Assembly: GCA_020073615.1 (NCBI GenBank)
Contig: JAIQEX010000002.1
Span: forward strand, 62,001 to 126,000
Direction: 5' to 3'
DNA from: Terriglobia bacterium
Lineage (GTDB): Bacteria; Acidobacteriota; Terriglobia; Bryobacterales; Bryobacteraceae
Length of the DNA: 64,000 nucleotides
Translations under genes and position numbers: made by a program
The notes under the pieces: model-generated
What the model was told of the DNA's origin: nothing
Databases searched by the model: none
What the model saw: only the letters and a program-made list of their open reading frames with translations
In this document: one piece after another, positions 6,449-23,769 of the stretch
Layout of the letters: each line of letters begins with the position of its first letter
Position numbering within the stretch: the stretch's first letter is position 1

Positions 6449-6464
6449 TAAAGCCGGCCTTTTG
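6440..6464 (+). terminator. probable terminator overlapping the tRNA 3' end
   Basis: CCGGC (6440-6444) can pair with GCCGG (6453-6457) across an eight-base loop that contains the CCA, followed by CCTTTTG. The stem is short and shares bases with the acceptor stem, so it would form only in the unprocessed transcript. Confidence 0.4.
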
Positions 6465-6647
6465 TTCCGCGCCCCGGCGGGGTCGGTTTGCGCTACAGTC
6501 GTGATGGAAGGGCGCATCGCCATGGCTTCCAACGCCGATGGGAGTGGGTTGCCGGGCCGGATCGTGGGACGGTTCCGCCTCGTCCGCTTGCTCGGCGAGG
6601 GCGGCATGAGCCGCGTGTACGCCGGCGAGCGGAGCGGCGACTTCCAG
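6465..6647 (+). repeat. direct repeat copy B: promoter region and start of the intact kinase
   Basis: This is the partner of 6114-6297. It carries the upstream region and the first 42 codons of the intact kinase. The offset to copy A is 351 bases before, and 350 after, a one-base indel in the GGAA(A)G run just upstream of the start codon. Confidence 0.95.
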
Positions 6648-8078
6648 CAAATCGCGGCCGTGAAGCTGCTGCGGGAGGAACTGTGCGATTCCGAGATGCG
6701 CCTCCGCTTTCGCGCCGAGCGGCAAGTGCTCGCATCTCTGCAGCACCCCAACATCGTCCAGTTGATCGACGGTGGACTCACTGCCGATGGCGTGCCGTAC
6801 CTGATTATGGACTACGTGGAGGGGGAACCGCTGGACCAGTACTGCGACCGGCGGCGGATATCGCTGCGCGAGAGAATTCAGTTGACCATCCAGGTCCTGG
6901 ATGCCGTGGCATATGCGCACCAGCACTTTGTGGCGCACTGCGATATCAAGTTCTCCAACATCCTGGTTACCGCGGACGGCCAGGCGCGGTTATTGGATTT
7001 CGGCCTCACCAAGCTGCTCGAGCCCTCCCGTCTGGGAATCGACAGCCAGATGACCGGAGCGGCCCTCCGCCCGTTTACCCTCGAGTTCGCCAGCCCGGAG
7101 CAGCTCCAGGGGCAGAACCTGACCACGTCCACGGACATCTATTCCTGCGCGGTGGTGCTCTATATCCTGTTGACCGGCACGCATCCCTTCGAGGCTTTGC
7201 GGAGCCAGCCGCTGGCATTGGTGCGGGCGTGCATCTCCGAGGAGCCGGAGGCGCCCAGTCATCGGGTGAAACACCTGATGCGTACCGATCGGGCGGCTGC
7301 GCACCGCGCGGCAGAGTCGCTGGGGACCACGCCGGAGAGGCTGGCGCGGGAACTCCATGGCGATCTGGATGCCGTGCTGCTCAAAGCTCTGCGGAAGGAG
7401 CCCGACCGCCGGTACACCAGTGCGACTCAGTTCGCCGCCGATCTCGGAAATTTTCTGGCGGGGCGTCCAGTGGAGGCCAGACGCGGGTCGAAGCGCTATC
7501 GGCTCTGGAAGTTTGTGAAACGGAACCGCGCGGGCGCGATTGCGGCGCTGGTCCTGCTGGGCGCTCTGCTCGCGGGAGCCGGGGGCGTGATCTGGCAAGG
7601 CATTCGCGCCGGCAGGTCCAGGGCCATTGCGGAAGCACGGTTCGACGATGCCCGCAAGCTGACGGATTCCCTGCTGCTGGACTTTTATCAATCGGTGCAG
7701 AAGCTGGATGGATCCGAGCGCGCCAAGCGGTCACTGGTTCAGTGGTCTCGCGAGACACTGGAGAATCTCGCCCGGCAGAGCGGGAGCAACGCCGCGGTAA
7801 GAGCGGACCTGGCAAACACGTATTTGCAGTTGGGGAGGCTCCAGGCGAACAGCGGAGGCGCCGATCCACCGCAGTGGACGGAGGCCGTGGCGTCATACGA
7901 TCACGGGCTCTCGCTGCTGGAGCCGGTACTCGCGAAGGAGCCCGCCAGCCGCCCTGCGCTGGTGGGCAGAGCACACCTGCTCGAAGCCCGGAGCGAAGCG
8001 GAAAGGGCGCTCGGCCGGCTCGAGGACAGTGCCCGAGACGCCAACCTCGCGCGCGAGATCCTGTCCCGCAAGGAGTAG
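6522..8078 (+). CDS. membrane-anchored Ser/Thr protein kinase (Hanks type), HCD variant
   Basis: 518 residues. The start is the ATG at 6522, with GGAAGG ten bases upstream. Kinase domain at about 15-320: glycine loop LLGEGGMSRV (24-32), AAVK lysine 48, helix-C Glu66, catalytic loop HCDIKFSNIL (Asp141) and DFG Asp159. The usual HRD Arg is Cys, as in non-RD kinases. An insertion with charged helices precedes the last kinase helices. RAGAIAALVLLGALLAGAGG near 348-367 is one membrane helix, followed by ~130 residues with TPR-like character outside. The same layout (kinase, helix, TPR-like tail) is found in the convergent kinase at 8093-10873, but this tail is much shorter. It has no sigma-factor partner of its own. 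The substrate is unknown. Confidence 0.9.
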   Translation: MASNADGSGLPGRIVGRFRLVRLLGEGGMSRVYAGERSGDFQQIAAVKLLREELCDSEMRLRFRAERQVLASLQHPNIVQLIDGGLTADGVPYLIMDYVEGEPLDQYCDRRRISLRERIQLTIQVLDAVAYAHQHFVAHCDIKFSNILVTADGQARLLDFGLTKLLEPSRLGIDSQMTGAALRPFTLEFASPEQLQGQNLTTSTDIYSCAVVLYILLTGTHPFEALRSQPLALVRACISEEPEAPSHRVKHLMRTDRAAAHRAAESLGTTPERLARELHGDLDAVLLKALRKEPDRRYTSATQFAADLGNFLAGRPVEARRGSKRYRLWKFVKRNRAGAIAALVLLGALLAGAGGVIWQGIRAGRSRAIAEARFDDARKLTDSLLLDFYQSVQKLDGSERAKRSLVQWSRETLENLARQSGSNAAVRADLANTYLQLGRLQANSGGADPPQWTEAVASYDHGLSLLEPVLAKEPASRPALVGRAHLLEARSEAERALGRLEDSARDANLAREILSRKE

Positions 8079-8092
8079 AAATCGCGAAGCGC

Positions 8093-10873
8093 TTACGGCT
8101 TCCGCTCACGCAAGCCACGCAGCATGTCTTCCACCGATCGGCGCGTCCTGGTTGCCGGCTGGCCGTGCGCGGGCGCGGGTAGCAGCGCTAATGCCTTGCC
8201 GAGTGCCTGGCGGGCCTCCTCCGGTTGGCCGCATGCCAACTCGGCTTTGGCGAGGGTCAGGAGAAATGGCGCGTTGGCGCCGTGGCTCCGGGCCACTGCC
8301 TGCGTAGCAAAACCGAGGGCCTGGCGGGGTTCCCGCCACTCCACCGGCTCGACGTCCACGAGATAGCCGGCGATCCGGTCCAGGTCGGCCGCCGAGGCAT
8401 TGGCGTTGCCGGCGATGCGCAGGGCCAGCGCGAGTGCTTCGCGGACGGCGCGATCGCCTTCCGCCCGCCGCCCGAGGGCGCGATCGATTCGCCCGATGCG
8501 ATACGTGGCTTCCGCCCGGTGGCCCAGCCACACGGAATTGGTTGCATCCCGCCGCAGTAGCTCGCCCAAAATTCCCAGCACGCGGCGGTAGTCTTCCCGC
8601 GCGCCGATGCGGTCGCCCATGCTCTCCCTGACCTGTCCGAGCTCATAGTCCGCATTGGCGAGGTCGTAGCGTGTGCGGGTATCGTCCGGATCGCGCTCCG
8701 CCAGCGAGGCGAACAGGTCGCGGGCGGAGACCAGGTAAGGAATGGCTTCTCCCGGCCGCGCGATCTCGTAGTAGAGGGTCCCCAATCCACGGCTGATGAT
8801 CGCGGCGATGCGCGGCGTGGGCATGGCCTTGCGCGCCTTCTCGGGGAGCCGGTTCAGGGCGGCGAGAGCATCGGCGTAGCTTTGCGCGGCAACCGTGGGC
8901 TCGGTGTCGCCTTGCACGTTGGCGATTTTCATCTGCTCGATGGCCGTGCCCCGCTGCGACCGGACATTGCCGGGATCCAGGGCGAGGGCACGCCGGTGCA
9001 GGACCAGCGCATGGCGATAACTGTCGAGGGCGGCACCGAGGTCGCCCATGCTGGCGGAACCGTGGAGCCCGTACAGGTCCCCCAGCGAATCCAGAGTGGA
9101 GGCCGCTTCCTGTATGTCCGGCACGGTGGCCGCGGGCCTCCCCGCCAGCCCTTCGAACGAGCGCGCGGCGGCACGGGAGTACTCAATGGCCCGCGTGGTG
9201 TTGCCGATGCTGAAATGCACTTCGGCGAGACTGCGCCGTGCCAGGCCAAGGCGCCGTGCGACGGCCGGGTCTTCGGGGCGAAGCCGATCGAGACTCTCGG
9301 CGAGGTGGAGGGCTTTTTCCAGGCTGGCGAGAGCCTTGGGAGCGTCCCCCAGATTCTCTTCGTAGGGATTGCCCAGCACGTTCCCCATTTTCGTGTAGGC
9401 TTCGACCAGATCGAGTTGAATGTCCGGCTCCGTCCACGGTCCTCGGGCGAGGCCATCGAGATAGGCAACCGCCTGGGTGACGAGCCGCCGCTGCACGTCG
9501 GTGGAGCCTTGCAGTTGCTTCACCTGATCGTAGAAATCGAACAGAAGAAGGTTGGCGAGGCGCCGGACATTTTGAAAGCCCGCCCGCGCGCGGCGTTCTT
9601 CGGCCGCGGCAATGCGGCCCTGGCGCGCCGTCACAGCCACCCCGGCAGCAAGCGCCGTGGTGATCGCGAGGGTTGCGCCGAAAGCCAGAGCGTGGCGCCG
9701 GACGAACTTGAACGCACGATAGGCCGCGCTGCCCTGGCGCGCTCCGACCGGCCGATGCTCCAGATGATTCCGCAGGTCCGCGGCCAGCTCGTCGACGGAC
9801 CCATAGCGCTCCTCCGGACGCGCGCGCAGGGCCTTGAGCACGATCGCGTCCAGGTCCCCGCGAAGCTCCCCGCGGCGTATGCGCACCTCCTCCGCCGTCG
9901 TTGCGTTCGCGCTCCCTCCGGGCGCCGGCCGGGTGATGGCCTCGTGCGGCGAAACCGGAACGGTGGCCATCACCGTCTGCACGGCTTCGGCGCTGGAAAG
10001 GTCGTGAAGGTCGAACGGGAGCCGGCCGCTGAGGAGCCGATAGAGGATGACGCCGAGGGAGTAGACATCGGACGCCGCCGTGGTGGTTGTGCCCAGCACC
10101 TGTTCCGGGCTGGCGTACTGTGGGGTGAAGGCTCTCATTCCCATGCGGGTGGCCTGATGTCCGATGGCGGGGTCCGGGTGCAGCAGCTTCGCCGCGCCGA
10201 AATCGAGAAGCTTCACCCGGCCCTCGGGCGTGACCAGCACGTTCGCCGGTTTCAGGTCGCGGTGAATCACCAGATGGCGGTGCGCAAATGAGACCGCATC
10301 GCACAGCTGAAGCGACAGCCGCAGCACCGCGGGAACCGAAGCTCGCGTCTGCTCGCAATAGCGGTCGAGGCGCAGACCATCGACGTACTCCATGACCAGG
10401 TACGGTTCGCCCGACTCGGTGATGCCGCCGTCCAGCAGCCGGGCAATATTCGGATGGTTCAAGGACGCGAGCGTCTGGCGTTCTTCGAGAAAGCGCTGTC
10501 TCAGCCAGGGGGACCGGAAAGGCCCGGAGGCGAGCTTGAGCGCAACCTCCTGCTCGAAGTCTCCACCGATGCGCCGGCCGAAATAGACGGCCCCCATGCC
10601 TCCGCGCCCAATCAGGCGTTCCAGGTGGAAAGCGCCGAGGGTGCGGCCGATCCATCGTTCGGCTTCCGGGGGTTCGGCCGGTTCCTGCGGGACACCCGCG
10701 AGGCGCTCGGCCTCGGACGCCGCTTGCAGCAGAGATTCCACCTCTTCCCGCAGCGCGCGATCGCCGGCGCACCACTCCTCCAGGAGCGTCGAGCGCTCCT
10801 CCGCCGCGCACTCCGAGGCACGGTGGAAAAGCTCCTCCACGCGTTGCCAGCGTTCTTCAGGAGCCAGTGCCAT
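8093..10873 (-). CDS. Ser/Thr protein kinase with transmembrane helix and C-terminal TPR array
   Basis: 926 residues from the ATG at 10873. Residues 1-75 are a helical N-terminal region (RWQRVEELFHRASECA) common in acidobacterial sigma-linked kinases. Kinase domain at about 80-370: LIGRGGMGAVYFG loop, Lys113, HRDLKPAN with Asp206 and DFGAAKLL with Asp224, all intact. A hydrophobic helix near 405-430 (LAFGATLAITTALAAGVAV) is followed by ~490 residues of TPR-type helical repeats, for example AVARRLGLARRSLAEVHFSI. Its start overlaps the ECF sigma gene by 17 bases, so the two are co-translated. Kinase-associated ECF factors of this type are thought to be activated through the kinase, which is the likely role here. 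It converges with the kinase at 6522 with only 14 bases between the stops. Confidence 0.92.
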   Translation of the reverse strand: MALAPEERWQRVEELFHRASECAAEERSTLLEEWCAGDRALREEVESLLQAASEAERLAGVPQEPAEPPEAERWIGRTLGAFHLERLIGRGGMGAVYFGRRIGGDFEQEVALKLASGPFRSPWLRQRFLEERQTLASLNHPNIARLLDGGITESGEPYLVMEYVDGLRLDRYCEQTRASVPAVLRLSLQLCDAVSFAHRHLVIHRDLKPANVLVTPEGRVKLLDFGAAKLLHPDPAIGHQATRMGMRAFTPQYASPEQVLGTTTTAASDVYSLGVILYRLLSGRLPFDLHDLSSAEAVQTVMATVPVSPHEAITRPAPGGSANATTAEEVRIRRGELRGDLDAIVLKALRARPEERYGSVDELAADLRNHLEHRPVGARQGSAAYRAFKFVRRHALAFGATLAITTALAAGVAVTARQGRIAAAEERRARAGFQNVRRLANLLLFDFYDQVKQLQGSTDVQRRLVTQAVAYLDGLARGPWTEPDIQLDLVEAYTKMGNVLGNPYEENLGDAPKALASLEKALHLAESLDRLRPEDPAVARRLGLARRSLAEVHFSIGNTTRAIEYSRAAARSFEGLAGRPAATVPDIQEAASTLDSLGDLYGLHGSASMGDLGAALDSYRHALVLHRRALALDPGNVRSQRGTAIEQMKIANVQGDTEPTVAAQSYADALAALNRLPEKARKAMPTPRIAAIISRGLGTLYYEIARPGEAIPYLVSARDLFASLAERDPDDTRTRYDLANADYELGQVRESMGDRIGAREDYRRVLGILGELLRRDATNSVWLGHRAEATYRIGRIDRALGRRAEGDRAVREALALALRIAGNANASAADLDRIAGYLVDVEPVEWREPRQALGFATQAVARSHGANAPFLLTLAKAELACGQPEEARQALGKALALLPAPAHGQPATRTRRSVEDMLRGLRERKP

Positions 10874-11465
10874 GATGCCGGCCTTGGGCCGCGTGCGCAC
10901 CGCCGCGCAGCTCCCGGAAGAGCCAGGCGCGCGCAAACTTCAGCTCCCGTTCCGCGGTGGCATGCGAGATGTTCAGCAGCTCGCAGGCCTCTTCGGTGGT
11001 GAAGGACAAGAAGAAGCGCAGCTCCAGCAGGCGCGCTTTGCGCGGATCGATTTCCTGCAGGCGCTCCAGGGCGGTGTTGAGGTCCAACAGTTCTTCGGCG
11101 CTCGACCCGATCCAGGCGAGGTCGGACGATACCGTGAGGTCGAAGCCTCCGCCGCGGCGTTGTGCCAGATGGGCCCGGGCGTGATCCGTCAGGATATTGC
11201 GCATCACCAGCGCGGTAAAGGTGAAGAAGTGCGCCCGGTCGTTCCAGGTCACTTTGCGCTGGTGGAGCAGCCGCATGTAGAGCTCGTTGAGGAGGGCGGT
11301 GGGCTGCAGGGTGTGGTCCGTGCGCTCGCGGCGCATCAGTCCCAGGGCAATTCTGTGAAGCTGATCGTAAACCAGGGGAATCAGGGAATTGAACGCCTCC
11401 GGGTCGCCTTTGCGCCAACCTTCAAGCAGCAGCGTAACTTCTCCCGGATCGTCCTGACCGCCCAT
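10857..11465 (-). CDS. ECF-type RNA polymerase sigma factor (TIGR02999/Sig-70_X6-like)
   Basis: 202 residues. Region 2 is seen in GDPEAFNSLIPLVYDQLHRI, LQPTALLNELYMRLL and AHFFTFTALVMRNILTDHAR; region 4 is LELRFFLSFTTEEACELLNI followed by SHATAERELKFARAWL, a helix-turn-helix. The ALQPTALLNE and W-x-x-RAHFF features belong to the ECF group common in acidobacteria and planctomycetes and usually encoded beside a Ser/Thr kinase. No anti-sigma gene is adjacent; instead the kinase gene overlaps its 3' end. A perfect inverted repeat lies 17-34 bases before the start codon. A candidate regulon motif is described at 11520 and in three further places. Confidence 0.92.
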   Translation of the reverse strand: MGGQDDPGEVTLLLEGWRKGDPEAFNSLIPLVYDQLHRIALGLMRRERTDHTLQPTALLNELYMRLLHQRKVTWNDRAHFFTFTALVMRNILTDHARAHLAQRRGGGFDLTVSSDLAWIGSSAEELLDLNTALERLQEIDPRKARLLELRFFLSFTTEEACELLNISHATAERELKFARAWLFRELRGGAHAAQGRHHGTGS

Positions 11466-13762: not shown

Positions 13763-13784
13763 GATGGGACAGATGGAGGACCAA

Positions 13785-15401
13785 ATGACGAACGTCCCGA
13801 GAGCAAGAAACAGGAGTCGATTGATCCAAGTTTCGATAGCGTGCGCCGCGATTCTGGCCGGGACACAAGCGGCCGGCCAGCAGTCGCTGGATCAGATTCT
13901 CAAAAACGGTGTGGTGGTGCCGGGGAAAAAGCCTCCCGCCACGGCGACCACGCCGAAGCAGCCCGCCAATCAGCCCCGGAGCACAACGCCGGCGGCGAGA
14001 ACAGGGACTCCCGCGGCGGCCTCCGCGGGCTTTCACATGGACCTGCCCCCCGGATGGCGCGCTCAGGTGGCGCAAAACGGAGCGGTGATGGCCGCCGGCC
14101 AGGACGGTTCCGCCGTGGTCATCGCCCCGGTTCTGGGAGCGGGTGGCGCGGACGCTGGAACCTGGCTCCAAGGCAGCGGCGCGGCAGCCGTGGGCCAGTA
14201 TTTCCAGAGTGTGGCGATGACCGGAATCTATCAAAGCCGCATGGGGCCGAGCGCCGCCCTGGCCTCCTTCGACTATGCCGGGCCGTCCGGGGCGGGCACA
14301 GCCAATGTCCTGTGCTTCCTCAACGAAGGAGTGGGGACGCTTTACCTGATTGCCGGGCCCAAAGCGGCGTTCCCGCAGCAACGTTCCGGCCTGGTGCGCA
14401 TCCTGCGGAGTTTTTCCTTCACGGGAGAGCAAACGGGCGGCGAAGCGGCTCAGGCCGTTTCCCACACCACCTTCACCCGGTTCCGCGATCCCAGCGAGGG
14501 GGCGTTCACCATTGATGTGCCCGCCGGATGGAAAGTCGAGGGCGGGCTGGTCCGCAAATCGACGCTCGATGTCCGGCCCTTCGTCTGGATGAACTCACCC
14601 GATGGTTCGACGGCGATCCACCTCCGCGACCCCAGCTTCGGCACGTTCATCATCCCCAGCCAGATGCTTGCGATGGCACATCTACAGGAAGGAATGACCT
14701 ACACACCCGGCTACGGCAACATATGGGTCATCGCCCGCTACCTGCCCGGCCCGCAGTTCGCGCAGCAGTATGCCGCCAAGCTGGCCGCGGACACGCAGAC
14801 CTCGGACGTGCAGATCAAATCCGTTAATCCCCGGCAGGACCTGAGCAAGTCGCAGACCACGGGCATCGTGCAGGAGCAGACCATCGGCGGAGAGGTGGAA
14901 TTCACCTGCACGCGCAACGGGCAGGAGTGCGCCGGCAAGGTAGTGGCGTCGACGCGACTGCATGTGACTTCGACCATGCCCGATTCCGCCCTCTGGTTTA
15001 TCGACCTGCTGGCTTCCTTCGTGACCGTGCGGGAACGCTACGGCGCGACGGACCAGATGCTCCAGCATATGATCGCATCGACGGAGTGGAACCCGCAGTG
15101 GGAGGCGATGCAAAGCCAGACCGCGTACAAGACCGGGCAGATCGCCCGCGACGCGAGCCAGTATACCGCCCAGGTTTTCGATGAGGTCCACGCCAACCGC
15201 GAGAGGTCCGAGGAGCGCATACATCAAAACCGCATCGACACCATCCGCGGCGTCGTACGCCTGAAGGATCCGAACACCGGCGAGGAGTTGGAGGGCGTGG
15301 CCGGCCGGAACTACTACTACCGCGCCCCGGGAGGCAGAGCCTTTGGCGCGGACCGTGAGATTCGCAGCCCTGACCTGACCGAACTCGAACAGATTCGTTA
15401 G
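13785..15401 (+). CDS. secreted protein, paralogue 1 (two PsbP/MOG1-like modules, conserved C-terminal tail)
   Basis: 538 residues. The ATG at 13785 follows GGAGGACCAA. A signal peptide (VSIACAAILAGTQAAG) is followed by SLDQILKNGVVVPGKK and a Pro/Thr/Ala-rich linker. Two similar modules follow: one from FHMDLPPGWRAQVAQNG and one from FTIDVPAGWKVEGGLV, each opening with the beta-strand and P-x-G-W pattern of MOG1/PsbP/DcrB-like domains (inference from pattern). The last 70 residues (RERSEERIHQNRIDTIRGVV, then DPNTGEELEGVAGRNYYYRA) are almost identical to those of the gene at 15589. The function is unknown. The location just upstream of the FHA-protease/kinase operon suggests an envelope partner. 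Confidence 0.8.
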   Translation: MTNVPRARNRSRLIQVSIACAAILAGTQAAGQQSLDQILKNGVVVPGKKPPATATTPKQPANQPRSTTPAARTGTPAAASAGFHMDLPPGWRAQVAQNGAVMAAGQDGSAVVIAPVLGAGGADAGTWLQGSGAAAVGQYFQSVAMTGIYQSRMGPSAALASFDYAGPSGAGTANVLCFLNEGVGTLYLIAGPKAAFPQQRSGLVRILRSFSFTGEQTGGEAAQAVSHTTFTRFRDPSEGAFTIDVPAGWKVEGGLVRKSTLDVRPFVWMNSPDGSTAIHLRDPSFGTFIIPSQMLAMAHLQEGMTYTPGYGNIWVIARYLPGPQFAQQYAAKLAADTQTSDVQIKSVNPRQDLSKSQTTGIVQEQTIGGEVEFTCTRNGQECAGKVVASTRLHVTSTMPDSALWFIDLLASFVTVRERYGATDQMLQHMIASTEWNPQWEAMQSQTAYKTGQIARDASQYTAQVFDEVHANRERSEERIHQNRIDTIRGVVRLKDPNTGEELEGVAGRNYYYRAPGGRAFGADREIRSPDLTELEQIR

Positions 15402-15588: not shown

Positions 15589-17250
15589 ATGACCACCACG
15601 AGGACAGCGGAAAGAAAGGTCCGATTGTGGAAGATTGCAGCGGCTCTTGGCGCCTCGATCTTGTTTGGCCCGCCGTCGGTAGGTCAGCAGTCGCTGGATG
15701 ATCTTCTCAAGAAAGGCGTCGTAACGCCCGGAAAGAAGCCAGCGGCTGCCCAACAGCCTGTCAGTAAGGGCCAGACCGCAGCGCCGGCGAAAAAAGCGGC
15801 AACGCCCGCCGGCGGTCAAAAAAACCAGGCAGTTGCGGCCACATCCGGGGCTTTTCGCATGGATCTGCCGCCGGGATGGCGCGCACAGATGGGGCAGAAC
15901 GGTGCGGTAGTTGCCGCTGGGCAAGGAGATCTGGCGGTGGTGATCGCTCCGGTGTTGGACGCGGGCGAAGTTGCAGCCGGGACTTGGCTGCAACGAGCTG
16001 GCGCCTCTGCGGTAGCGAAGTACCTGCGAGATCCCACGATCACGGGAATCTACCCCAGCCGAATGGGGACCAGCGCTGCCCTGGCGTCTTTCGATTACGG
16101 CGGAGGAGAGGGCGCCGCAAACGCCCTCTGCCTCATCAACGGAGGAATTGGAACACTGTACATCATTGCCGGCCCCAAGGCGGTGTTCTTGCAGCAACGC
16201 CCCGGGCTGGTGCAGATGCTGAAGACCTTCTCTTTCTCAGGCGAAGCCCGCAGCGGGGGAGAATCGGCGCAGACGTCCCGGGCGGGCTTTATCAACTTCC
16301 AGGATCCCGCGGAAAAGGCATTCACCATCGACGTGCCCGCGGGCTGGAAGGTTGAGGGCGGGCTGGTACGCAAATCAGCGATGGATTTCCGGAACTACGT
16401 CTGGGCGACCTCGCCCGATGGTTTCGCTTTCATCCGCCTTCGCGACCCTGCTTATGGCACTTTCATGATTCCCGACCCCACCCATGAGTCCCTCGGCGTT
16501 CGGGAGGGCATGAACTACACGGTAGGCCTCGGCCTCGTGGAGCTCGTGTTGCGCTATATCCCCGGTCCGGACTTCGCCCGTCAGTATGCCGCCAAGTTGG
16601 CAGCCGACCTACAGGCCACCGGCTTGCAGGTCACAGCCGTTAATCCCCGGCCGGACCTGAGTAAGACGGAAACCGCGCCCGCTCCCGGACCTTATGCCCC
16701 ACAGGTCCAGGTTACGGCCGCGGAAGCCGAATTCACCTGCACGCGCAATGGCCAGCCGTATGCCGGCAAGGTCGTCGCGGCGACTCGCCTGGATCTGTTC
16801 CAGGACAGGAATCCGATTCTGGGCAACACGAATTTCGGGCATTGGAGCATCAAATACCTGGGCTCCTATTTAACCCCGCAGGAGCGCCTGAGGGACACCG
16901 ACCAGATCTTCCGGCACATGCTGGATTCCGTGCAGTTCAGCGCGGAGTGGGGGAGGATGCAGGGCAAACTCGCTTTCGACGCCGCGCAAGCGAACAGGGG
17001 CGTGTCTGAGTACCGGGCCCGGGTCTTCGATGAGGTTCACCAGAACCGCGAAAGGTCGGAAGAACGGATACACCAAAACCGCATCGACTCCATCCGGGGC
17101 GTCGTTCGCCTGAAGGATCCGAACACCGGCGAGGAGTTGGAAGGCGTAGCCGGAAGGAACTACTACTACCGCGCACCGGGAGGCAGGGCCGTCGGCGCGG
17201 ACAGAGAGATTCGCAGCCCTGACTTCACTGAGCTTGAACAGATTCGTTAG
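15589..17250 (+). CDS. secreted protein, paralogue 2
   Basis: 553 residues. GGAG lies eight bases before the ATG. It has the same layout as the gene at 13785: signal peptide, SLDDLLKKGVVTPGKKP, an Ala/Pro/Lys linker, module 1 from FRMDLPPGWRAQMGQNG, module 2 from FTIDVPAGWKVEGGLV, and a conserved tail ending FTELEQIR. The tail is charged and helical (EVHQNRERSEERIHQNRI) and then has GRNYYYRAPGGRAVGADREI; it is the most conserved part of the pair, so it is probably the functional contact surface. It ends 17 bases before the FHA-protease gene, and is probably the first gene of that operon, driven by motif copy d. Confidence 0.8.
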   Translation: MTTTRTAERKVRLWKIAAALGASILFGPPSVGQQSLDDLLKKGVVTPGKKPAAAQQPVSKGQTAAPAKKAATPAGGQKNQAVAATSGAFRMDLPPGWRAQMGQNGAVVAAGQGDLAVVIAPVLDAGEVAAGTWLQRAGASAVAKYLRDPTITGIYPSRMGTSAALASFDYGGGEGAANALCLINGGIGTLYIIAGPKAVFLQQRPGLVQMLKTFSFSGEARSGGESAQTSRAGFINFQDPAEKAFTIDVPAGWKVEGGLVRKSAMDFRNYVWATSPDGFAFIRLRDPAYGTFMIPDPTHESLGVREGMNYTVGLGLVELVLRYIPGPDFARQYAAKLAADLQATGLQVTAVNPRPDLSKTETAPAPGPYAPQVQVTAAEAEFTCTRNGQPYAGKVVAATRLDLFQDRNPILGNTNFGHWSIKYLGSYLTPQERLRDTDQIFRHMLDSVQFSAEWGRMQGKLAFDAAQANRGVSEYRARVFDEVHQNRERSEERIHQNRIDSIRGVVRLKDPNTGEELEGVAGRNYYYRAPGGRAVGADREIRSPDFTELEQIR

Positions 17251-17267: not shown

Positions 17268-18950
17268 ATGGAACCGAAGATGATCATCCGTTTCCGTAAC
17301 GGGAGCAAGAAAGAGACCGTGGCGGAATTTCCCTTGAAACTTCATCACAGCATCCGATTCGGACGCGAAAGCGAATGCGAGGTCGCCTTCGACGCCGAGC
17401 GGGACGACATCGTGAGCCGGCAGCATGCCAGGATTGACGTTGCCGCGGGCGAGGCGACCGAATTCAAGTTGACCGATCTCGGCAGCCGTAACGGCACCTT
17501 CGTCAACCGGCAGCGCATTGCGAACGAGGCGACCCTGCGGCCGGGAGACGTCATTCAACTCGGACCGGGCGGCCCCGAAATGGAGTTCGATGTCGATCCC
17601 CGTCCCGCGGCGGTGAAGGCCACGCGGCTGGCCACCGATCTGCCGGTTCCGAAGCCGACCCGGGAAGCCGTGCCCGCGCCGGTCGTGACGCCGGTAATCG
17701 CCATGCCCGCGGCTAGAACCGGGGTCGGCAAAGCAACGGTCGAGCGCATGATCTACCAAAGCCAGACGAAGACGCGTGTGTATCAGATCGCGGCTTTGGC
17801 GGCGATCCTGCTCCTCGCCGCGGGAGGCGCCTTTGCGTTCTATCGTCTCCGGACGGCGAGGATTGGCGCGCCTGTGCCGCCGTCGGTTGCCGAGATTGCC
17901 AGCCGGAATACCGATTCCGTCGTGTTCTTCGAGGTCGGCTGGAAAGTGGTGGACATCGAAAGCGGCCGCCAGCTCTATCAGGTCACTATGCCGAACAGCG
18001 TCAGCAGCAAGGAAGGCGAAGCCAAAGAGCTGATTCCGGGCGGACCCGCCAATCTGCCGGTCTTCGTTCCCATGGGACAGCAGATCGAGCCCATGCTCAC
18101 CACCGACGACGCTGGAGGCAAGAACCGGCCGATCGGCGGCGCCCATATGGGCTCCGGCTTCGTCGTCAGCTCGGACGGCTTCATCCTGACGAACCGCCAT
18201 GTGGCGGCCACCTGGCTCACGCGCTATAACTTCCCGGATCCGGCCGGCGTGGTGCTCCAGTTCGACGACAAGATGCAGGTGAAGGGTATCATTCCAATTC
18301 CCGCGCAACGGTTTCCCGCGTGGGTGCCGGCCAACGCACAGCTCGTAGTCCAGGGTGGCATCAAGAACGGAGTTCGCATCCTCCAGAAATCGATCTCCGG
18401 CAAGAGCATCGAAGGCCGCAACGATTACCTGGATGTGACGTTCGCGAAGAACCGCGTCCGCATTCCGGGAAAGGTGGCGCGCGTATCGGACCAGATCGAT
18501 GTGGCGATGGTGAAAATCGATATTCCGCGCGGTCTGCGCCAGGTGGATCTGTTCGACAACTACAACAGTGTGAAACCGGGGGATCCGATCGTCATCCTGG
18601 GCTACCCGGCGGTCTCGCCGATGGTGGTCGGCGCGGTCACGTCGAAAGATGTCTTCAACAGCGCCACCGAGGCCAAGGTGATTCCGGATCCGACCCTCAG
18701 CGTGGGCAACATCGGGCGCGTCATCCGCGGGCAGGCGGGCTTGACTGAGGCCACCTTCAGCAGTTTCGGCGACGTGTACCAGCTCACGGTGAACTCGACG
18801 GGCGCCGGCAACAGCGGCGGGCCCGTATTCGATGAGAAGGGCCGCGTGATCGGCATCTTCACCTCTTCGGTCAACCTGGACGTCAAGGTCACGTTCGCCG
18901 TGCCCATCCGCTACGGCATGGAACTGATGGGGACCAACCGCGTGATGTGA
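17268..18950 (+). CDS. FHA domain - transmembrane helix - trypsin-like (HtrA-type) serine protease
   Basis: 560 residues. Residues 1-110 are an FHA phosphothreonine-binding domain (FGRESEC with Arg33, SRQHA with Ser50/His53, GSRNGTFVNRQ). A Pro-rich linker leads to one membrane helix (about 173-192, IAALAAILLLAAGGAFAFYR). The outer part is a chymotrypsin-fold protease with a complete triad: His311 in LTNRHVAAT, Asp411 in SDQIDVAMVKID and Ser516 in STGAGNSGGPVFDEKG. No PDZ domain is evident. The sequence between His and Asp is longer than in DegP. The protein can therefore read kinase activity in the cytoplasm and cut proteins in the periplasm. It lies between the secreted paralogues and two kinase genes, 19 bases before the first kinase. 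This fusion is unusual compared with classical HtrA, which has PDZ domains. Confidence 0.9.
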   Translation: MEPKMIIRFRNGSKKETVAEFPLKLHHSIRFGRESECEVAFDAERDDIVSRQHARIDVAAGEATEFKLTDLGSRNGTFVNRQRIANEATLRPGDVIQLGPGGPEMEFDVDPRPAAVKATRLATDLPVPKPTREAVPAPVVTPVIAMPAARTGVGKATVERMIYQSQTKTRVYQIAALAAILLLAAGGAFAFYRLRTARIGAPVPPSVAEIASRNTDSVVFFEVGWKVVDIESGRQLYQVTMPNSVSSKEGEAKELIPGGPANLPVFVPMGQQIEPMLTTDDAGGKNRPIGGAHMGSGFVVSSDGFILTNRHVAATWLTRYNFPDPAGVVLQFDDKMQVKGIIPIPAQRFPAWVPANAQLVVQGGIKNGVRILQKSISGKSIEGRNDYLDVTFAKNRVRIPGKVARVSDQIDVAMVKIDIPRGLRQVDLFDNYNSVKPGDPIVILGYPAVSPMVVGAVTSKDVFNSATEAKVIPDPTLSVGNIGRVIRGQAGLTEATFSSFGDVYQLTVNSTGAGNSGGPVFDEKGRVIGIFTSSVNLDVKVTFAVPIRYGMELMGTNRVM

Positions 18951-18968
18951 CGCGAAGCGAGGCGGGCT

Positions 18969-20147
18969 GTGACACTCCGAAACGGCGCTCTCATCGGGCG
19001 GTATCGCGTGGACGCCCCCATCGGTGCGGGGGGCATGGGAGAGGTCTATCGCGTAACCGATACCGCCAGCGGCCGGACCATGGCGTTGAAGACTCTCCCG
19101 CGGGGGCCGGTCGAGCCACGGGTCTGGGAGCGGTTCCTGAATGAAGCGACCATCCAGTCCCAGCTTTCGCACCCGGCGATTGCCGCGTTTCACGAGATGT
19201 TCCTTTGGGGCGAACTGCCCTGCTTGATCATGGAGTACGTCGCAGGGCAGACGCTCGACCAGGTGGTGTCGGGCACCGGCCCCGTGCCTCCCGGCGAGGC
19301 CGTCCGCCTGCTCGGCCCCATCTGCGAGGCCCTCTCGTATTTGCATGCGATGGGCATCCTGCACCGGGATTTGAAATCGTCCAACGTGAAACTGATGCCC
19401 GACGGATCGGTGAAGCTCATCGATTTCGGAATCGCGCGTTTTCGCAGCGCCGCCCGGATGACACAGGTGGGCGCCGTCGCCGGCACACCGGAGATGCTCG
19501 CTCCGGAATTGCTACGCGGGCGGCTCGCGGACGAAGCGTCGGAAATCTGGGGTCTCGGCGTGCTCGGATACGAGATGCTCACCGGCCGGTTGCCGTTCGC
19601 CGGAGCTGCCGTCCAGGACGTTTATCGTCAGATCCTCGAGGACGATCCGGTGCCGCCCTCGGAGCTGAATCCCGCCGTTCCGGCGAACCTCGACCTGGTA
19701 ATCATGCGCTGCCTGAGCAAGAATCCCGCGAAGCGGTACCGGACTTGCGACGGGGTCCGGCGAGCGCTCGCCGGCAAGGTTCTTACGAAGCGGGAAGAGG
19801 TTATTGCGGTATCGCGGAGGCCGGGAACATGGAAGCGCGCAGTCCTGGCAGCCGGAGTTGCCGTGGCGCTGTGGGTCGGCGCGCGAGGAGTCGCCGGCCT
19901 CTGGAGACCGGCGGCCGGCGAGCGCACGGTCACCATCGAAGCCGTCGGCGGCGCAGCCGAGGTCTACCGGGAAGGCCGGCTTCTGGGGCACACTCCGTAC
20001 ACCCGCCACGCCAGCCCTGGCGAGACCATCAGCGTCGAACTGCGGCGGGAGGGCTCGGCGCCCTTGCCGGTGCAGTTCGAAGTGAGCCAAAGGAACGTTT
20101 ATAGCTATACCCTGAGCCCGGTGAGTTCTCCCGCAACGGGCCGATGA
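18969..20147 (+). CDS. Ser/Thr protein kinase with membrane helix and PEGA-like extracytoplasmic domain
   Basis: 392 residues, starting at GTG after GAGGCGGG. The kinase domain (10-270) is complete: IGAGGMGEVYRV, Lys41, HRDLKSSN with Asp134, DFGIAR with Asp152, LAPELL (APE), and E instead of D in the usual D-x-W-x-x-G (ASEIWGLG). One helix lies at about 289-310 (AVLAAGVAVALWVGARGVA). The last ~75 residues (VTIEAVGGAAEVYREGRLLG, then HTPYTRHASPGE) look like a PEGA domain, a beta-sandwich often found outside the membrane on acidobacterial and myxococcal kinases. It sits in the operon between the FHA-protease and PP2C, so the FHA-protease is an obvious candidate substrate (inference). Confidence 0.92.
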   Translation: MTLRNGALIGRYRVDAPIGAGGMGEVYRVTDTASGRTMALKTLPRGPVEPRVWERFLNEATIQSQLSHPAIAAFHEMFLWGELPCLIMEYVAGQTLDQVVSGTGPVPPGEAVRLLGPICEALSYLHAMGILHRDLKSSNVKLMPDGSVKLIDFGIARFRSAARMTQVGAVAGTPEMLAPELLRGRLADEASEIWGLGVLGYEMLTGRLPFAGAAVQDVYRQILEDDPVPPSELNPAVPANLDLVIMRCLSKNPAKRYRTCDGVRRALAGKVLTKREEVIAVSRRPGTWKRAVLAAGVAVALWVGARGVAGLWRPAAGERTVTIEAVGGAAEVYREGRLLGHTPYTRHASPGETISVELRREGSAPLPVQFEVSQRNVYSYTLSPVSSPATGR

Positions 20148-20159
20148 AAGGACACCTGC

Positions 20160-20987
20160 ATGCCGCAACAGAGATCGAAGGCCACGGCAGGATGCCACTG
20201 GCTGCCGTTCGACCGTTTCGCAGTGGACGCGGGCTGCCGCTCCGATCGGGGGCGCATCCGGCCGCTGAACGAAGACAGCGTTTGCGTGGTGGTGCCGGAA
20301 GATCCCGAGATGCTGAGTGCCAAGGGCGTGCTGATGGTGGTGGCCGACGGGATGGGCGGCCACGAGGGCGGCGAACTGGCCAGTTCGATGGCCGTCGAGC
20401 GGGTGAGGGCGGATTACTACCGCGGCGCGTCGAACCCCGGGCGGGCGTTGGCCGCTGCCTTCGAGCGGGCCAACCAGGACGTCTTCGATCACGCGCGCCG
20501 CCATCCGAAACTTGCCGGAATGGGGACAACTTGCACCGCGGCGGCCGTGGTGAACGGCTTCGCGTGGCTGGCGCACGTGGGCGACAGCCGCTTGTACCTG
20601 GTTCGAGGGGGCAGCGCGTATCGCATGACACAAGACCACTCCGCGACCATGGAGCTGGTGAATCGCGGGCTGCTGACCCTTGCCGAAGCCGACCGCCACG
20701 AGGAACGGAACGTCATCCTGCGCGCCTTGGGTACGCACGAGCGGCTGGAAGTGGCCACCTGGAAGGATCCGTTCCCGCTCCACACCGGCGACCGGCTGGT
20801 GCTCTGCTCCGACGGCCTCTACGAAACCATCCCCGATGACGAGCTCGGAGATATCTGCACGCGCCAGGGAACCAGCGCGCAAGCCTGCGATGCGCTGCTG
20901 CGGACCGCCCTGGACCGGGACGGGACCGACAACATTACGGTGGCAGTCCTGTATGTCTCACCGGAAAGCGAGGAGGCAAGGAAATGA
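20160..20987 (+). CDS. PP2C-family protein Ser/Thr phosphatase
   Basis: 275 residues, cytoplasmic. All PPM-family motifs are present in order: RPLNEDSV (first metal-binding Asp), VVADGMGGHEGGE, GMGTTCTAAAV, AHVGDSRLYLV, MTQDHS, LCSDGLYETI and GTDNITVAV. It should remove phosphate from Ser/Thr of the kinases or the FHA ligand encoded beside it, and thus reset the circuit. The gene overlaps the following kinase by ATGA (start 20984, stop 20987), so phosphatase and kinase are made together. The kinase/PP2C/FHA set resembles the phosphorylation module of some type VI secretion loci, but no T6SS genes are present here. Confidence 0.95.
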   Translation: MPQQRSKATAGCHWLPFDRFAVDAGCRSDRGRIRPLNEDSVCVVVPEDPEMLSAKGVLMVVADGMGGHEGGELASSMAVERVRADYYRGASNPGRALAAAFERANQDVFDHARRHPKLAGMGTTCTAAAVVNGFAWLAHVGDSRLYLVRGGSAYRMTQDHSATMELVNRGLLTLAEADRHEERNVILRALGTHERLEVATWKDPFPLHTGDRLVLCSDGLYETIPDDELGDICTRQGTSAQACDALLRTALDRDGTDNITVAVLYVSPESEEARK

Positions 20988-22960
20988 ACTCCATGACCGG
21001 CCGTGTGATCGGCAACTACCGCATCGTCGACAAGCTGGGCGAAGGAGGCATGGGTACGGTCTATCGCGGAATCGACACCATGGTGGAACGCGAGGTGGCG
21101 CTGAAATCCCTGAGGCCGGAAATCGCCGCTCAGCCGGGCGTTCTGGAGCGATTTCACCGCGAAGCCGTCGTGCTGGCGCGCCTGAACCATCCGGCGATCG
21201 CGCAGCTCTACACCTTCTTTAAAGACGGCAACGAGTTCTTCATGGTGATGGAGTATGTGGCCGGCCAGACGCTGGAGCAAATGATCCAGCAGCGCGGCGC
21301 CCTGCCCTGGCCGCAGGCGTTGTCGTTTGCGCTGCAAATGCTCGAGGGTATCGGCCACGCCCATGCGCTCGATATCCTGCATCGCGACCTGAAGCCGGCC
21401 AATGTCATCGTAACTCCCTCGGGCAGACTCAAGCTGATGGATTTCGGCATCGCGCAAGCGCTCGGAGCGGCGCGCCTCACGCGGGAAGGCCGGATCGTCG
21501 GAACCCTCGAGTACCTGGCGCCGGAGCGCATCCAGGGCAAACCCGCGGACGCGCGCTCCGACCTGTATTCGGCCGGCGTGGTGCTTTACGAAATGCTCAC
21601 CGGCCGGCTCCCATTCGACAGCGACAGCGACTACGAGCTGCTGATGGCGCAGGTGCAGAAGCAGCCTCCCACGCCGCGAGAGCTGGGAATCGAACTGCCG
21701 GCCGAGGTCGAAAGCGCGGTGATGAAAGCTTTGGAAAAAGATCCCGACCGCCGTTATCGGGACGCGGCGTCTTTTGCGGCCGCGCTTTCCGCTCTGACCC
21801 CGGCGTCCGGGAGGGGAGCGGGAAAGGCTGTGCTGAAGGCGACGCGCCTGGCGGTGGAACCGGCGGCAGTCCCGGCCCGGACGGAGCCGCTTCGGCGGCT
21901 GCGGCCGAAATGGCGCGCGGCTACGGCCATGCGGACGGCGGCGCTGATCGCAGCCGTGGTGGCGGTTGCCGCCGTCGCACTCACCTTCACGCGGCCGCAT
22001 CGCACGGCGGCTCCCCCTCCATCCCCGGAGGCTACAGAGAACGTGGCCCAAGCGGCGCTTCCGCCGCAGCCGCAGGAGCTGTGGACCCAACCACCGGCGC
22101 CGGTCCCTGTGGCGCCCGTGATTCCCTTTAAGCCGATTGAGGCGTCCAGCAGGACGGCTCCGGCGAGGCCGCCTGTTCCGAAAGCTTCGGCTCCGGCAAT
22201 TCCTACGCGCGAGCCAACGCCTGCTCCAGCGCCCGCCGCGCCGGCTCCGGCAACCGTACCACCCGCACCCACCGCCGAAGTGCGCCATGCCGCAGTCTCA
22301 GCTCTCGAGGAAACAGACCGCCCGATCCGGCTCAACGGTCTGCTGGCCGCGCTGCGTTTGGGAGGAGCGGCGATCACCGCGGATGTGGCTGGACCGATTG
22401 CCAGCCGCGGCGTGGATTTTCCGTTGACAGCAGCCAATGAAGCGGCTTTGCGCGAGGCCGGCGCGACGCCTGAGCTGGTCCGGCTGGTGGCGGCCAGCTA
22501 CGCGGCGCCCAAACCGGAGCCTAAGCCCGCACCTGCCCCCGCCGCGCCCGCGTCCGCCCCTTCCAAGGGCGTCAAGACCCTCGCCGATGTGCGGTCGGTG
22601 TACGTGGAGAGGTCGCCGGAAGGAATGGACCGATACATCAAGGACGAGATGCGGAAACAACTCGGAGGGATCGTGCGGCTCGTGGAATCCGAGGAAGGCG
22701 CCGACGGAATCATGCGGGTCGCCGTCGAGGCACGGAAAGGCGGCGCGGTGTCCGGAGCCGCGCGGGTGTTCGGCTTCAAAGATCGTTCCGTGGTCCGGGT
22801 GACGATTCTCGAACCCGGCTCTACCCGGGTGCTTTGGCAACAGGGCACGGGAGACCGCAAGCCGGTGATTGGCGCGTTCCACGGCGACGCGCCGTCGGTA
22901 ATGGCGCAGCGGATTGTGCGCGAACTGAAGGCGGATCTGGTAAACCGTCAATCGCATTGA
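20984..22960 (+). CDS. Ser/Thr protein kinase with large Pro/Ala linker and extracytoplasmic C-terminal domain
   Basis: 658 residues. Kinase domain (12-270): KLGEGGMGTVYRG, Lys41, HRDLKPAN with Asp135, DFGIAQ with Asp153 and LAPERI. A membrane helix lies at about 317-336 (MRTAALIAAVVAVAAVALTF), followed by ~90 residues rich in Pro/Ala, like a spacer through the periplasm. Residues ~440-500 (RLNGLLAALRLGGAAITADV, then RGVDFPLTAANEAALREAGA) are a small helical module with GVDF-x-L-x-x-x-x-E-x-x-L-R-x-A-G-A, and residues 530-658 form a second, unrecognised alpha/beta domain (VEARKGGAVSGAARVFGFKD). Probably a receptor kinase of the operon; it is co-translated with PP2C. Confidence 0.92.
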   Translation: MNSMTGRVIGNYRIVDKLGEGGMGTVYRGIDTMVEREVALKSLRPEIAAQPGVLERFHREAVVLARLNHPAIAQLYTFFKDGNEFFMVMEYVAGQTLEQMIQQRGALPWPQALSFALQMLEGIGHAHALDILHRDLKPANVIVTPSGRLKLMDFGIAQALGAARLTREGRIVGTLEYLAPERIQGKPADARSDLYSAGVVLYEMLTGRLPFDSDSDYELLMAQVQKQPPTPRELGIELPAEVESAVMKALEKDPDRRYRDAASFAAALSALTPASGRGAGKAVLKATRLAVEPAAVPARTEPLRRLRPKWRAATAMRTAALIAAVVAVAAVALTFTRPHRTAAPPPSPEATENVAQAALPPQPQELWTQPPAPVPVAPVIPFKPIEASSRTAPARPPVPKASAPAIPTREPTPAPAPAAPAPATVPPAPTAEVRHAAVSALEETDRPIRLNGLLAALRLGGAAITADVAGPIASRGVDFPLTAANEAALREAGATPELVRLVAASYAAPKPEPKPAPAPAAPASAPSKGVKTLADVRSVYVERSPEGMDRYIKDEMRKQLGGIVRLVESEEGADGIMRVAVEARKGGAVSGAARVFGFKDRSVVRVTILEPGSTRVLWQQGTGDRKPVIGAFHGDAPSVMAQRIVRELKADLVNRQSH

Positions 22961-22974
22961 CGAGGAGGCGAACC

Positions 22975-23769
22975 ATGCGAGTTGGATTTGTCGGGATTTT
23001 CCTGGGCCTGGCCGTGGCGGTGGTGCTGGCGCAAACGGCCCTCACCAACGATTCCATTATCAAGATGGCGAAAGCGGGTCTGGGCGAAGAGATCATCCTC
23101 AGCACCGTCCGGTCGCAGCCGGGCAGATATGCCACCAGTCCAGACGACTTGATCGCGCTGAAGACCGCGGGCGTGACCGACAAGGTGATCGCTGCGATGA
23201 TGGACAAGATGCCTTCGGTCGACGCCGCCGATCCGCCGCCCGCGGCAGCCGCCCCGGCCGTTGGGCTCCCGTCGCCGGCTTCCGTTACGGTGGCGGAGGT
23301 CGGCGTGTACTGCAACAAGAACGGATCCTGGGCCGACGTCCCGCCTGAGGTGGTGAATTTCAAGACCGGCGGCGTTCTCAAGACCATCGGCACGGTGGGG
23401 CTCATGAGGGGCGATGTCAACGGCCACATCCGCGGCGGGCACAGCGCCAGCACCCTGAAAACGCCGATTGATCTCATGGTCTACACGCCGGAGGGGGTGG
23501 CCATCACGGAGTATCAACTGTTGCGGCTTCGCGAGCAAAAGGACTCGCGGGAATTCCGAACGGTGACCGGCGGCGTGCTGCATTCCTCGGGCGGCGCCAC
23601 CCGCGACGTGATCCCGTTCGAGAGCCGGAAGATCGCCCCACGGACTTACGCGATCAATCTCCCCGCACTGGCCCCGGGCGAATACGGCCTCCTGCCGCCC
23701 GCCTCGGCCGACGCCACATCGTCTTCGGGCCGAATCGGCAAGATCTACTCGTTCCACGTGCTCGAGTAG
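22975..23769 (+). CDS. secreted protein of unknown function, last gene of the signalling operon
   Basis: 264 residues from the ATG at 22975, with GAGGAGGCGAACC before it. The signal peptide is VGIFLGLAVAVVLAQT. The first module (LTNDSIIKMAKAGLGEEIIL, then PDDLIALKTAGVTDKVIAAM) is a small helical repeat-like unit found in other acidobacterial secreted proteins. It is followed by a Pro/Ala linker and a beta-rich part with VYCNKNGSWADVPPEVVNFK. The helical module has the same flavour (L-K-x-A-G-V) as the one in the tail of the preceding kinase, so both may bind a common envelope partner; this is inference. A terminator-like hairpin lies right after its stop. Confidence 0.75.
   Translation: MRVGFVGIFLGLAVAVVLAQTALTNDSIIKMAKAGLGEEIILSTVRSQPGRYATSPDDLIALKTAGVTDKVIAAMMDKMPSVDAADPPPAAAAPAVGLPSPASVTVAEVGVYCNKNGSWADVPPEVVNFKTGGVLKTIGTVGLMRGDVNGHIRGGHSASTLKTPIDLMVYTPEGVAITEYQLLRLREQKDSREFRTVTGGVLHSSGGATRDVIPFESRKIAPRTYAINLPALAPGEYGLLPPASADATSSSGRIGKIYSFHVLE

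Follow-up and report, generated by a model that had tools for sequence, protein, structure and literature searches.

The window, by which we mean the whole stretch of 64,000 nucleotides analysed here (G000:C17:62001-126000, from an assembly of 6.96 Mb), raises the question of what an FHA domain that is joined to a protease through a membrane helix might do beside kinases and a phosphatase. The reading that we favour, and to which we give an even chance, is that an inside-out circuit of phosphorylation governs a membrane-anchored protease of the HtrA type. The protein in question, whose closest named relatives come from Bryobacterales (Acidobacteriota) MAGs, is encoded on the plus strand at 17268..18950. 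Its 560 aa comprise an FHA domain at aa 29-99 (Pfam, E 1e-18), a linker with a KATRL sequence that includes T119, a single strong hydrophobic helix at about aa 176-194 and a Trypsin_2 domain at aa 295-530 (Pfam, E 1e-17). When aligned by profile to human HTRA1, residues H311, D411 and S516 matched the blocks TNAHVV, DIAL and GNSGGP, and we therefore regard the enzyme as an HtrA-type protease; the HtrA (S1C) motifs TNxHV, D-[IV]-A and GNSGGP were all present. The Pfam matches, the hydrophobic helix and the HTRA1 alignment thus confirmed the first-pass annotation, which had described an FHA domain fused through one membrane helix to a trypsin-like protease with a full triad.

With HtrA, DegS and MarP the protein shares the HtrA-type triad motifs and a membrane anchor. 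In contrast to them, it scored far below the cut-offs of these three families, a predicted cytoplasmic FHA domain takes the place of a bare anchor, and neither a PDZ domain nor any other recognised sensing domain was found on the protease in the Pfam scan. The positive-inside signal was modest, and an AlphaFold2 model computed from six sequences had a mean pLDDT of 43, which makes it unfit for triad geometry or fold search. On the FHA side, the conserved contacts R33, S50 and N75 (within GR, SxxH and NG) were intact in the protein from the window and in those most closely related to it, with R33 retained wherever it could be aligned and S50 replaced by Gly in the distant families f10, f32 and partly f70. 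Most relatives thus share the contacts with the window protein, two members being degenerate (see below), and we infer that the domain would read phosphothreonine.

Downstream on the same strand lie genes for PK4, a single-TM kinase of the Hanks type whose C-terminal part weakly resembles PEGA (18969..20147), for a PP2C phosphatase assigned by Pfam, with its metal-site Asp residues retained (20160..20987), and for PK6, a second Hanks-type TM kinase with the activation loop RLTREG and the juxtamembrane sequence LKATRLAVEP (20984..22960). Two further genes on the plus strand, both likely co-transcribed, flank this set. They encode proteins with signal-peptide-like N-termini, as read by eye, and are located upstream at 15589..17250 (a paralogue of 13764-15401) and downstream at 22975..23769 (a family without assignment), the latter most likely starting at ATG 22975 and not at the mechanical TTG 22834. 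From the upstream to the downstream secreted-protein gene, the successive gaps were 17, 18, 12, -4 and 14 bp, so that one operon is likely; scans for promoters and terminators returned chance-level signals only. Given these gaps and the Pfam calls, the earlier proposal of a single operon including two receptor kinases and a PP2C is likely to be right.

Whether the genes belong together was assessed in 20 loci that hold both the FHA and the protease domain, drawn from several Acidobacteriota families and two termite-gut Bacteroidota MAGs. A PP2C gene was adjacent in 19 of them, the exception (L078) having a 286-aa ORF without a Pfam match in its place, and a kinase domain was adjacent in 18, the exceptions being L045, which stops at a contig border, and L050, in which the kinase domain is absent and the outer part retained. 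The order in relatives was FHA-TM-protease followed by PP2C and TM kinase, while PK4, the first kinase, was found in nine of the 20 loci. Catalytic residues of the kinases and the metal-binding Asp of the PP2C were kept almost throughout. Since PP2C and kinase matches number no more than 5 and 23 in this genome, adjacency by chance is negligible; the loci are related, and hence no corrected probability is given. Conservation of the gene set as a unit, on which the first-pass annotation had made its reading depend, was thus found across Acidobacteriota families and in the two Bacteroidota MAGs.

The distribution of the unit was patchy, even inside a genus: of the 101 genomes sampled from the family, 9 had a full-length relative (E < 1e-60), and 12 of 297 genomes sampled across the phylum had a match at E <= 1e-30, three of these partial. 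Two f21 loci encode a protease in which neither FHA nor TM could be identified. Patchiness of this kind, together with a weak match, in PADLOC, to RT-Protease models in their trypsin part, would fit a system of defence or conflict in which a protease is the effector. We nevertheless hold this to be very improbable, as the PADLOC kinase matches are generic and the Pfam scan found no vWA, MoxR, NTPase, nuclease or effector-associated domain in the operon genes. The vWA-MoxR/VMAP conflict systems, by contrast, combine vWA, a MoxR ATPase and a third component (PMC7159879), none of which is encoded in the operon. The two Bacteroidota loci, L045 and L046, come from termite-gut 'Tannerella' MAGs, on contigs with a GC content of 0.42-0.49 and Bacteroidota-like genes. 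A search of 295 Bacteroidales genomes gave a single match, the one already known, and a broad Bacteroidales origin was accordingly rejected; presence in these two MAGs and in no other of the genomes searched suggests transfer between phyla.

The secreted proteins fared differently. That such proteins precede and follow the operon, as had been noted, is in keeping with their N-termini, but their proposed part in the circuit did not hold, as they are not conserved with the unit. Homologues of 15589-17250 adjoin it only in L042 and L043, and homologues of 22975-23769 only in L053, and we therefore do not count either gene as core. The products of 13764-15401 and 15589-17250 are secreted paralogues and belong to a Bryobacteraceae family that has a common C-terminal domain, DPxTGxxxxxxxGxNYYxR. 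The conserved tail of the pair is thus the general C-terminal domain of their family, members of which, in relatives, mostly have no PP2C or FHA gene nearby, and the paralogues were rejected as core partners or substrates.

A feature common to the protease and the kinases was found in their linkers. Thr119 (codon 17622..17624, plus strand; aa 119 of ORF 17268) lies in the sequence VKATRLATD beside the FHA domain; it is nearly invariant among relatives and is our candidate phosphothreonine site. The wider motif, [KR]xTR[LIVM], was present between FHA and TM in 15 of the 20 FHA-proteases, where shuffled sequences led us to expect 0.2. Its KxTRL form recurs in the juxtamembrane segment of operon kinases from the window (LKATRLAVEP), L049, L051, L052, L073 (three kinases), L074 and L079, some of these segments holding the wider form two or three times; roughly half of the operon kinases lack the motif. 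Juxtamembrane KxTRL was found in 9/22 operon-linked PK6-type kinases and in 0/33 other kinases (p about 8e-5) or, counted per genome, in 7/18 versus 0/33 (p about 3e-4), both p-values serving only as guides because the motif was noticed before testing and the sequences are related. Within this genome, PK6 alone among 23 kinases carries it, and none of the other 22 does, nor does any unrelated kinase in the loci examined. The common motif suggests docking of the protease on the kinase. PK6 activation loops are mostly [RH]xTR across relatives, and the similar R-x-T-R setting of the activation-loop Thr suggests one kinase specificity. Two further TM kinase genes, 6462-8078 (+) and 8093-10936 (-), converge just upstream in the window, and the shared motif is not in their linkers.

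In the inside-out circuit, the two TM kinases would sense the envelope by means of their outer domains, autophosphorylate, and phosphorylate the Thr of [KR]xTR[LIVM] in both the juxtamembrane linker of PK6 and the FHA-protease linker (T119), while the PP2C would erase these marks. The FHA domain would then bind phosphothreonine either on the kinase, as a docking site, or on another copy of the FHA-protease, in which case it may oligomerise as TIFA does or bind itself in the manner of GarA/OdhI and DgcB. Because one helix joins the FHA domain to the protease, binding on the inside would place, cluster or trimerise the protease at the outer face, thereby switching the cleavage of envelope substrates. 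The first-pass annotation had likewise predicted that phosphothreonine inside the cell sets proteolysis outside, a reading that is supported in part. In favour of the circuit are the conservation of the unit, the intact FHA contacts, triad and active-site residues of kinases and PP2C, the motif of the linkers, the second circuit with reversed order and the joint loss of FHA contacts and catalytic His in one lineage (the last two described below). Against it count the Gly at S50 in distant families, the operon kinases that lack the motif, the two f21 loci, the patchy distribution and the modest positive-inside signal. Precedents cover each of these steps by analogy, not the mechanism as a whole. 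As stated in PMC12077195, PknB is bound by FhaA at its juxtamembrane part once this is phosphorylated, and the juxtamembrane domain of StkP is phosphorylated on Thr; Fha binds pThr14 of TssL (PMC3953482), the FHA domain of DgcB binds its own tail (PMC6733907), and TIFA forms oligomers (PMC7083832). A conserved Thr in the flexible tail of an FHA protein, here T119, is shared with GarA/OdhI, DgcB and TIFA, although the tail of the FHA-protease is C-terminal to the FHA domain and the effector would act across the membrane.

Kinase, PP2C and FHA also make up the mycobacterial PknB-PstP-FhaA/FhaB module, in which FHA docks on the phosphorylated juxtamembrane segment (PMC12077195). The unit studied here differs from that module in that its output is a protease and in that PASTA repeats and cell-wall genes are lacking: the Pfam scan found no PASTA outer domains in the operon kinases, and the NCBIfam model PknB_PASTA remained below its cut-off. 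The comparison bears on a second explanation, in which the FHA domain merely brings a constitutive protease of quality control to the places where the envelope grows, in the way that FhaA is localised, and protease activity is not switched. Mycobacterial FHA proteins are kinase-dependent partners in envelope growth (PMC11898655, PMC12077195), and this speaks for such a scaffold; no cell-wall synthesis genes were recognised in the conserved unit, however, and we judge it unlikely.

Control could also run from the outside inwards, with the protease as an envelope stress sensor that trims the outer domains of docked kinases and so sets kinase signalling, the FHA domain only holding it beside the phosphorylated kinases. 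Stress sensing is known from HtrA proteases such as DegS, and the docking suggested by the common motif would suit this arrangement. The relevant lineage is the degenerate one formed by L050 (8141-11626) and L053 (6394-8049), which are one clade, so that their joint losses represent one lineage and not two independent cases. Among all members, only L053 (H to R) and L050 (H to N) depart from the triad H311, D411 and S516, and in the same lineage S50 is altered and N75 reads S in L053 and T in L050; the FHA contacts were thus lost along with the catalytic His. L050 additionally lacks the Thr of the motif as well as the kinase domain, its PP2C being intact. That the outer domain and TM of the kinase remain in L050 although the kinase domain is gone would favour an outside-in direction, but the protease His is lost there as well and neither PDZ nor any other sensing domain was recognised on the protease, and we consider this direction, too, rather improbable.

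The inside-out circuit had further been distinguished, in the first-pass annotation, from the type VI secretion (T6SS) phosphorylation cascade, on the ground that no T6SS genes are near. This is correct for the stretch examined but not for the genome, as VipB (TssC) is encoded on other contigs (C26 and C29), and TssC was found in ten other genomes with the circuit. The T6SS Thr phosphorylation pathway (PpkA, PppA, Fha) likewise encodes a TM Hanks kinase, a PP2C and an FHA protein together, and its Fha binds pThr14 of the membrane protein TssL (PMC3953482). That the unit is the phosphorylation arm of a T6SS would be consistent with these same three regulator types and with the TssC genes elsewhere, but the unit itself holds no T6SS genes, a TM links its FHA domain to a protease, and the TagH model scored 27 against a cut-off of 120. 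Moreover, four circuit-bearing genomes (G196, G358, G374 and G389), one of them in two contigs, gave no match to the VipB sheath protein, which argues that the circuit is not tied to T6SS. This candidate was rejected as highly improbable, and the distinction drawn by the earlier annotation is supported.

A second locus of the same genome, L056:6222-11289 (G000:C16), presents the domains in reverse. It encodes a trypsin-TM-FHA protein (trypsin aa 93-291, TM at about 387, FHA aa 466-531), a separate FHA protein with a zinc-ribbon-like start, a PP2C and a TM kinase that carries Sel1 repeats, and the set is kept in G065 and G092. Because the trypsin-TM-FHA protein begins with a signal-like helix, its protease is expected outside and its FHA domain inside, as in the version with an N-terminal FHA domain. 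Two domain orders thus share one expected sidedness, which supports the reading of an inside reader and an outside cutter. We tentatively extend the proposal, at somewhat worse than even chances, to a design in which cytoplasmic phosphothreonine would switch a transmembrane protease by way of a motif common to kinase and protease and of FHA docking or oligomerisation. Such a design would have arisen at least twice with opposite domain order, and would hence be a general bacterial coupling of Ser/Thr kinases to envelope proteolysis.

Each part of the circuit is of a known kind. What is new is an FHA reader coupled through one helix to an outer protease and conserved with kinase and PP2C, and the earlier statement that no described system is known to have exactly this layout agrees with the open-access literature, in which no description of an FHA-TM-protease circuit was found. 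If the inside-out reading is true, proteolysis beyond the membrane would join the outputs of bacterial phosphothreonine signalling. Here, kinase, phosphatase, reader, output enzyme and candidate phosphosite are encoded together, and the pathway can therefore be rebuilt and tested in vitro.

Clusters of FHA, PP2C and kinase genes also occur in this genome at G000:C168:44333-46231 and G000:C47:10561-18247, and four of its five PP2C matches adjoin FHA and kinase genes. Elsewhere, L081:7993-9111 encodes a double FHA protein with a TM beside a PK6-like kinase, and L082:7378-9573 joins FHA and TM to an output that, by eye, resembles an NHL-like propeller.
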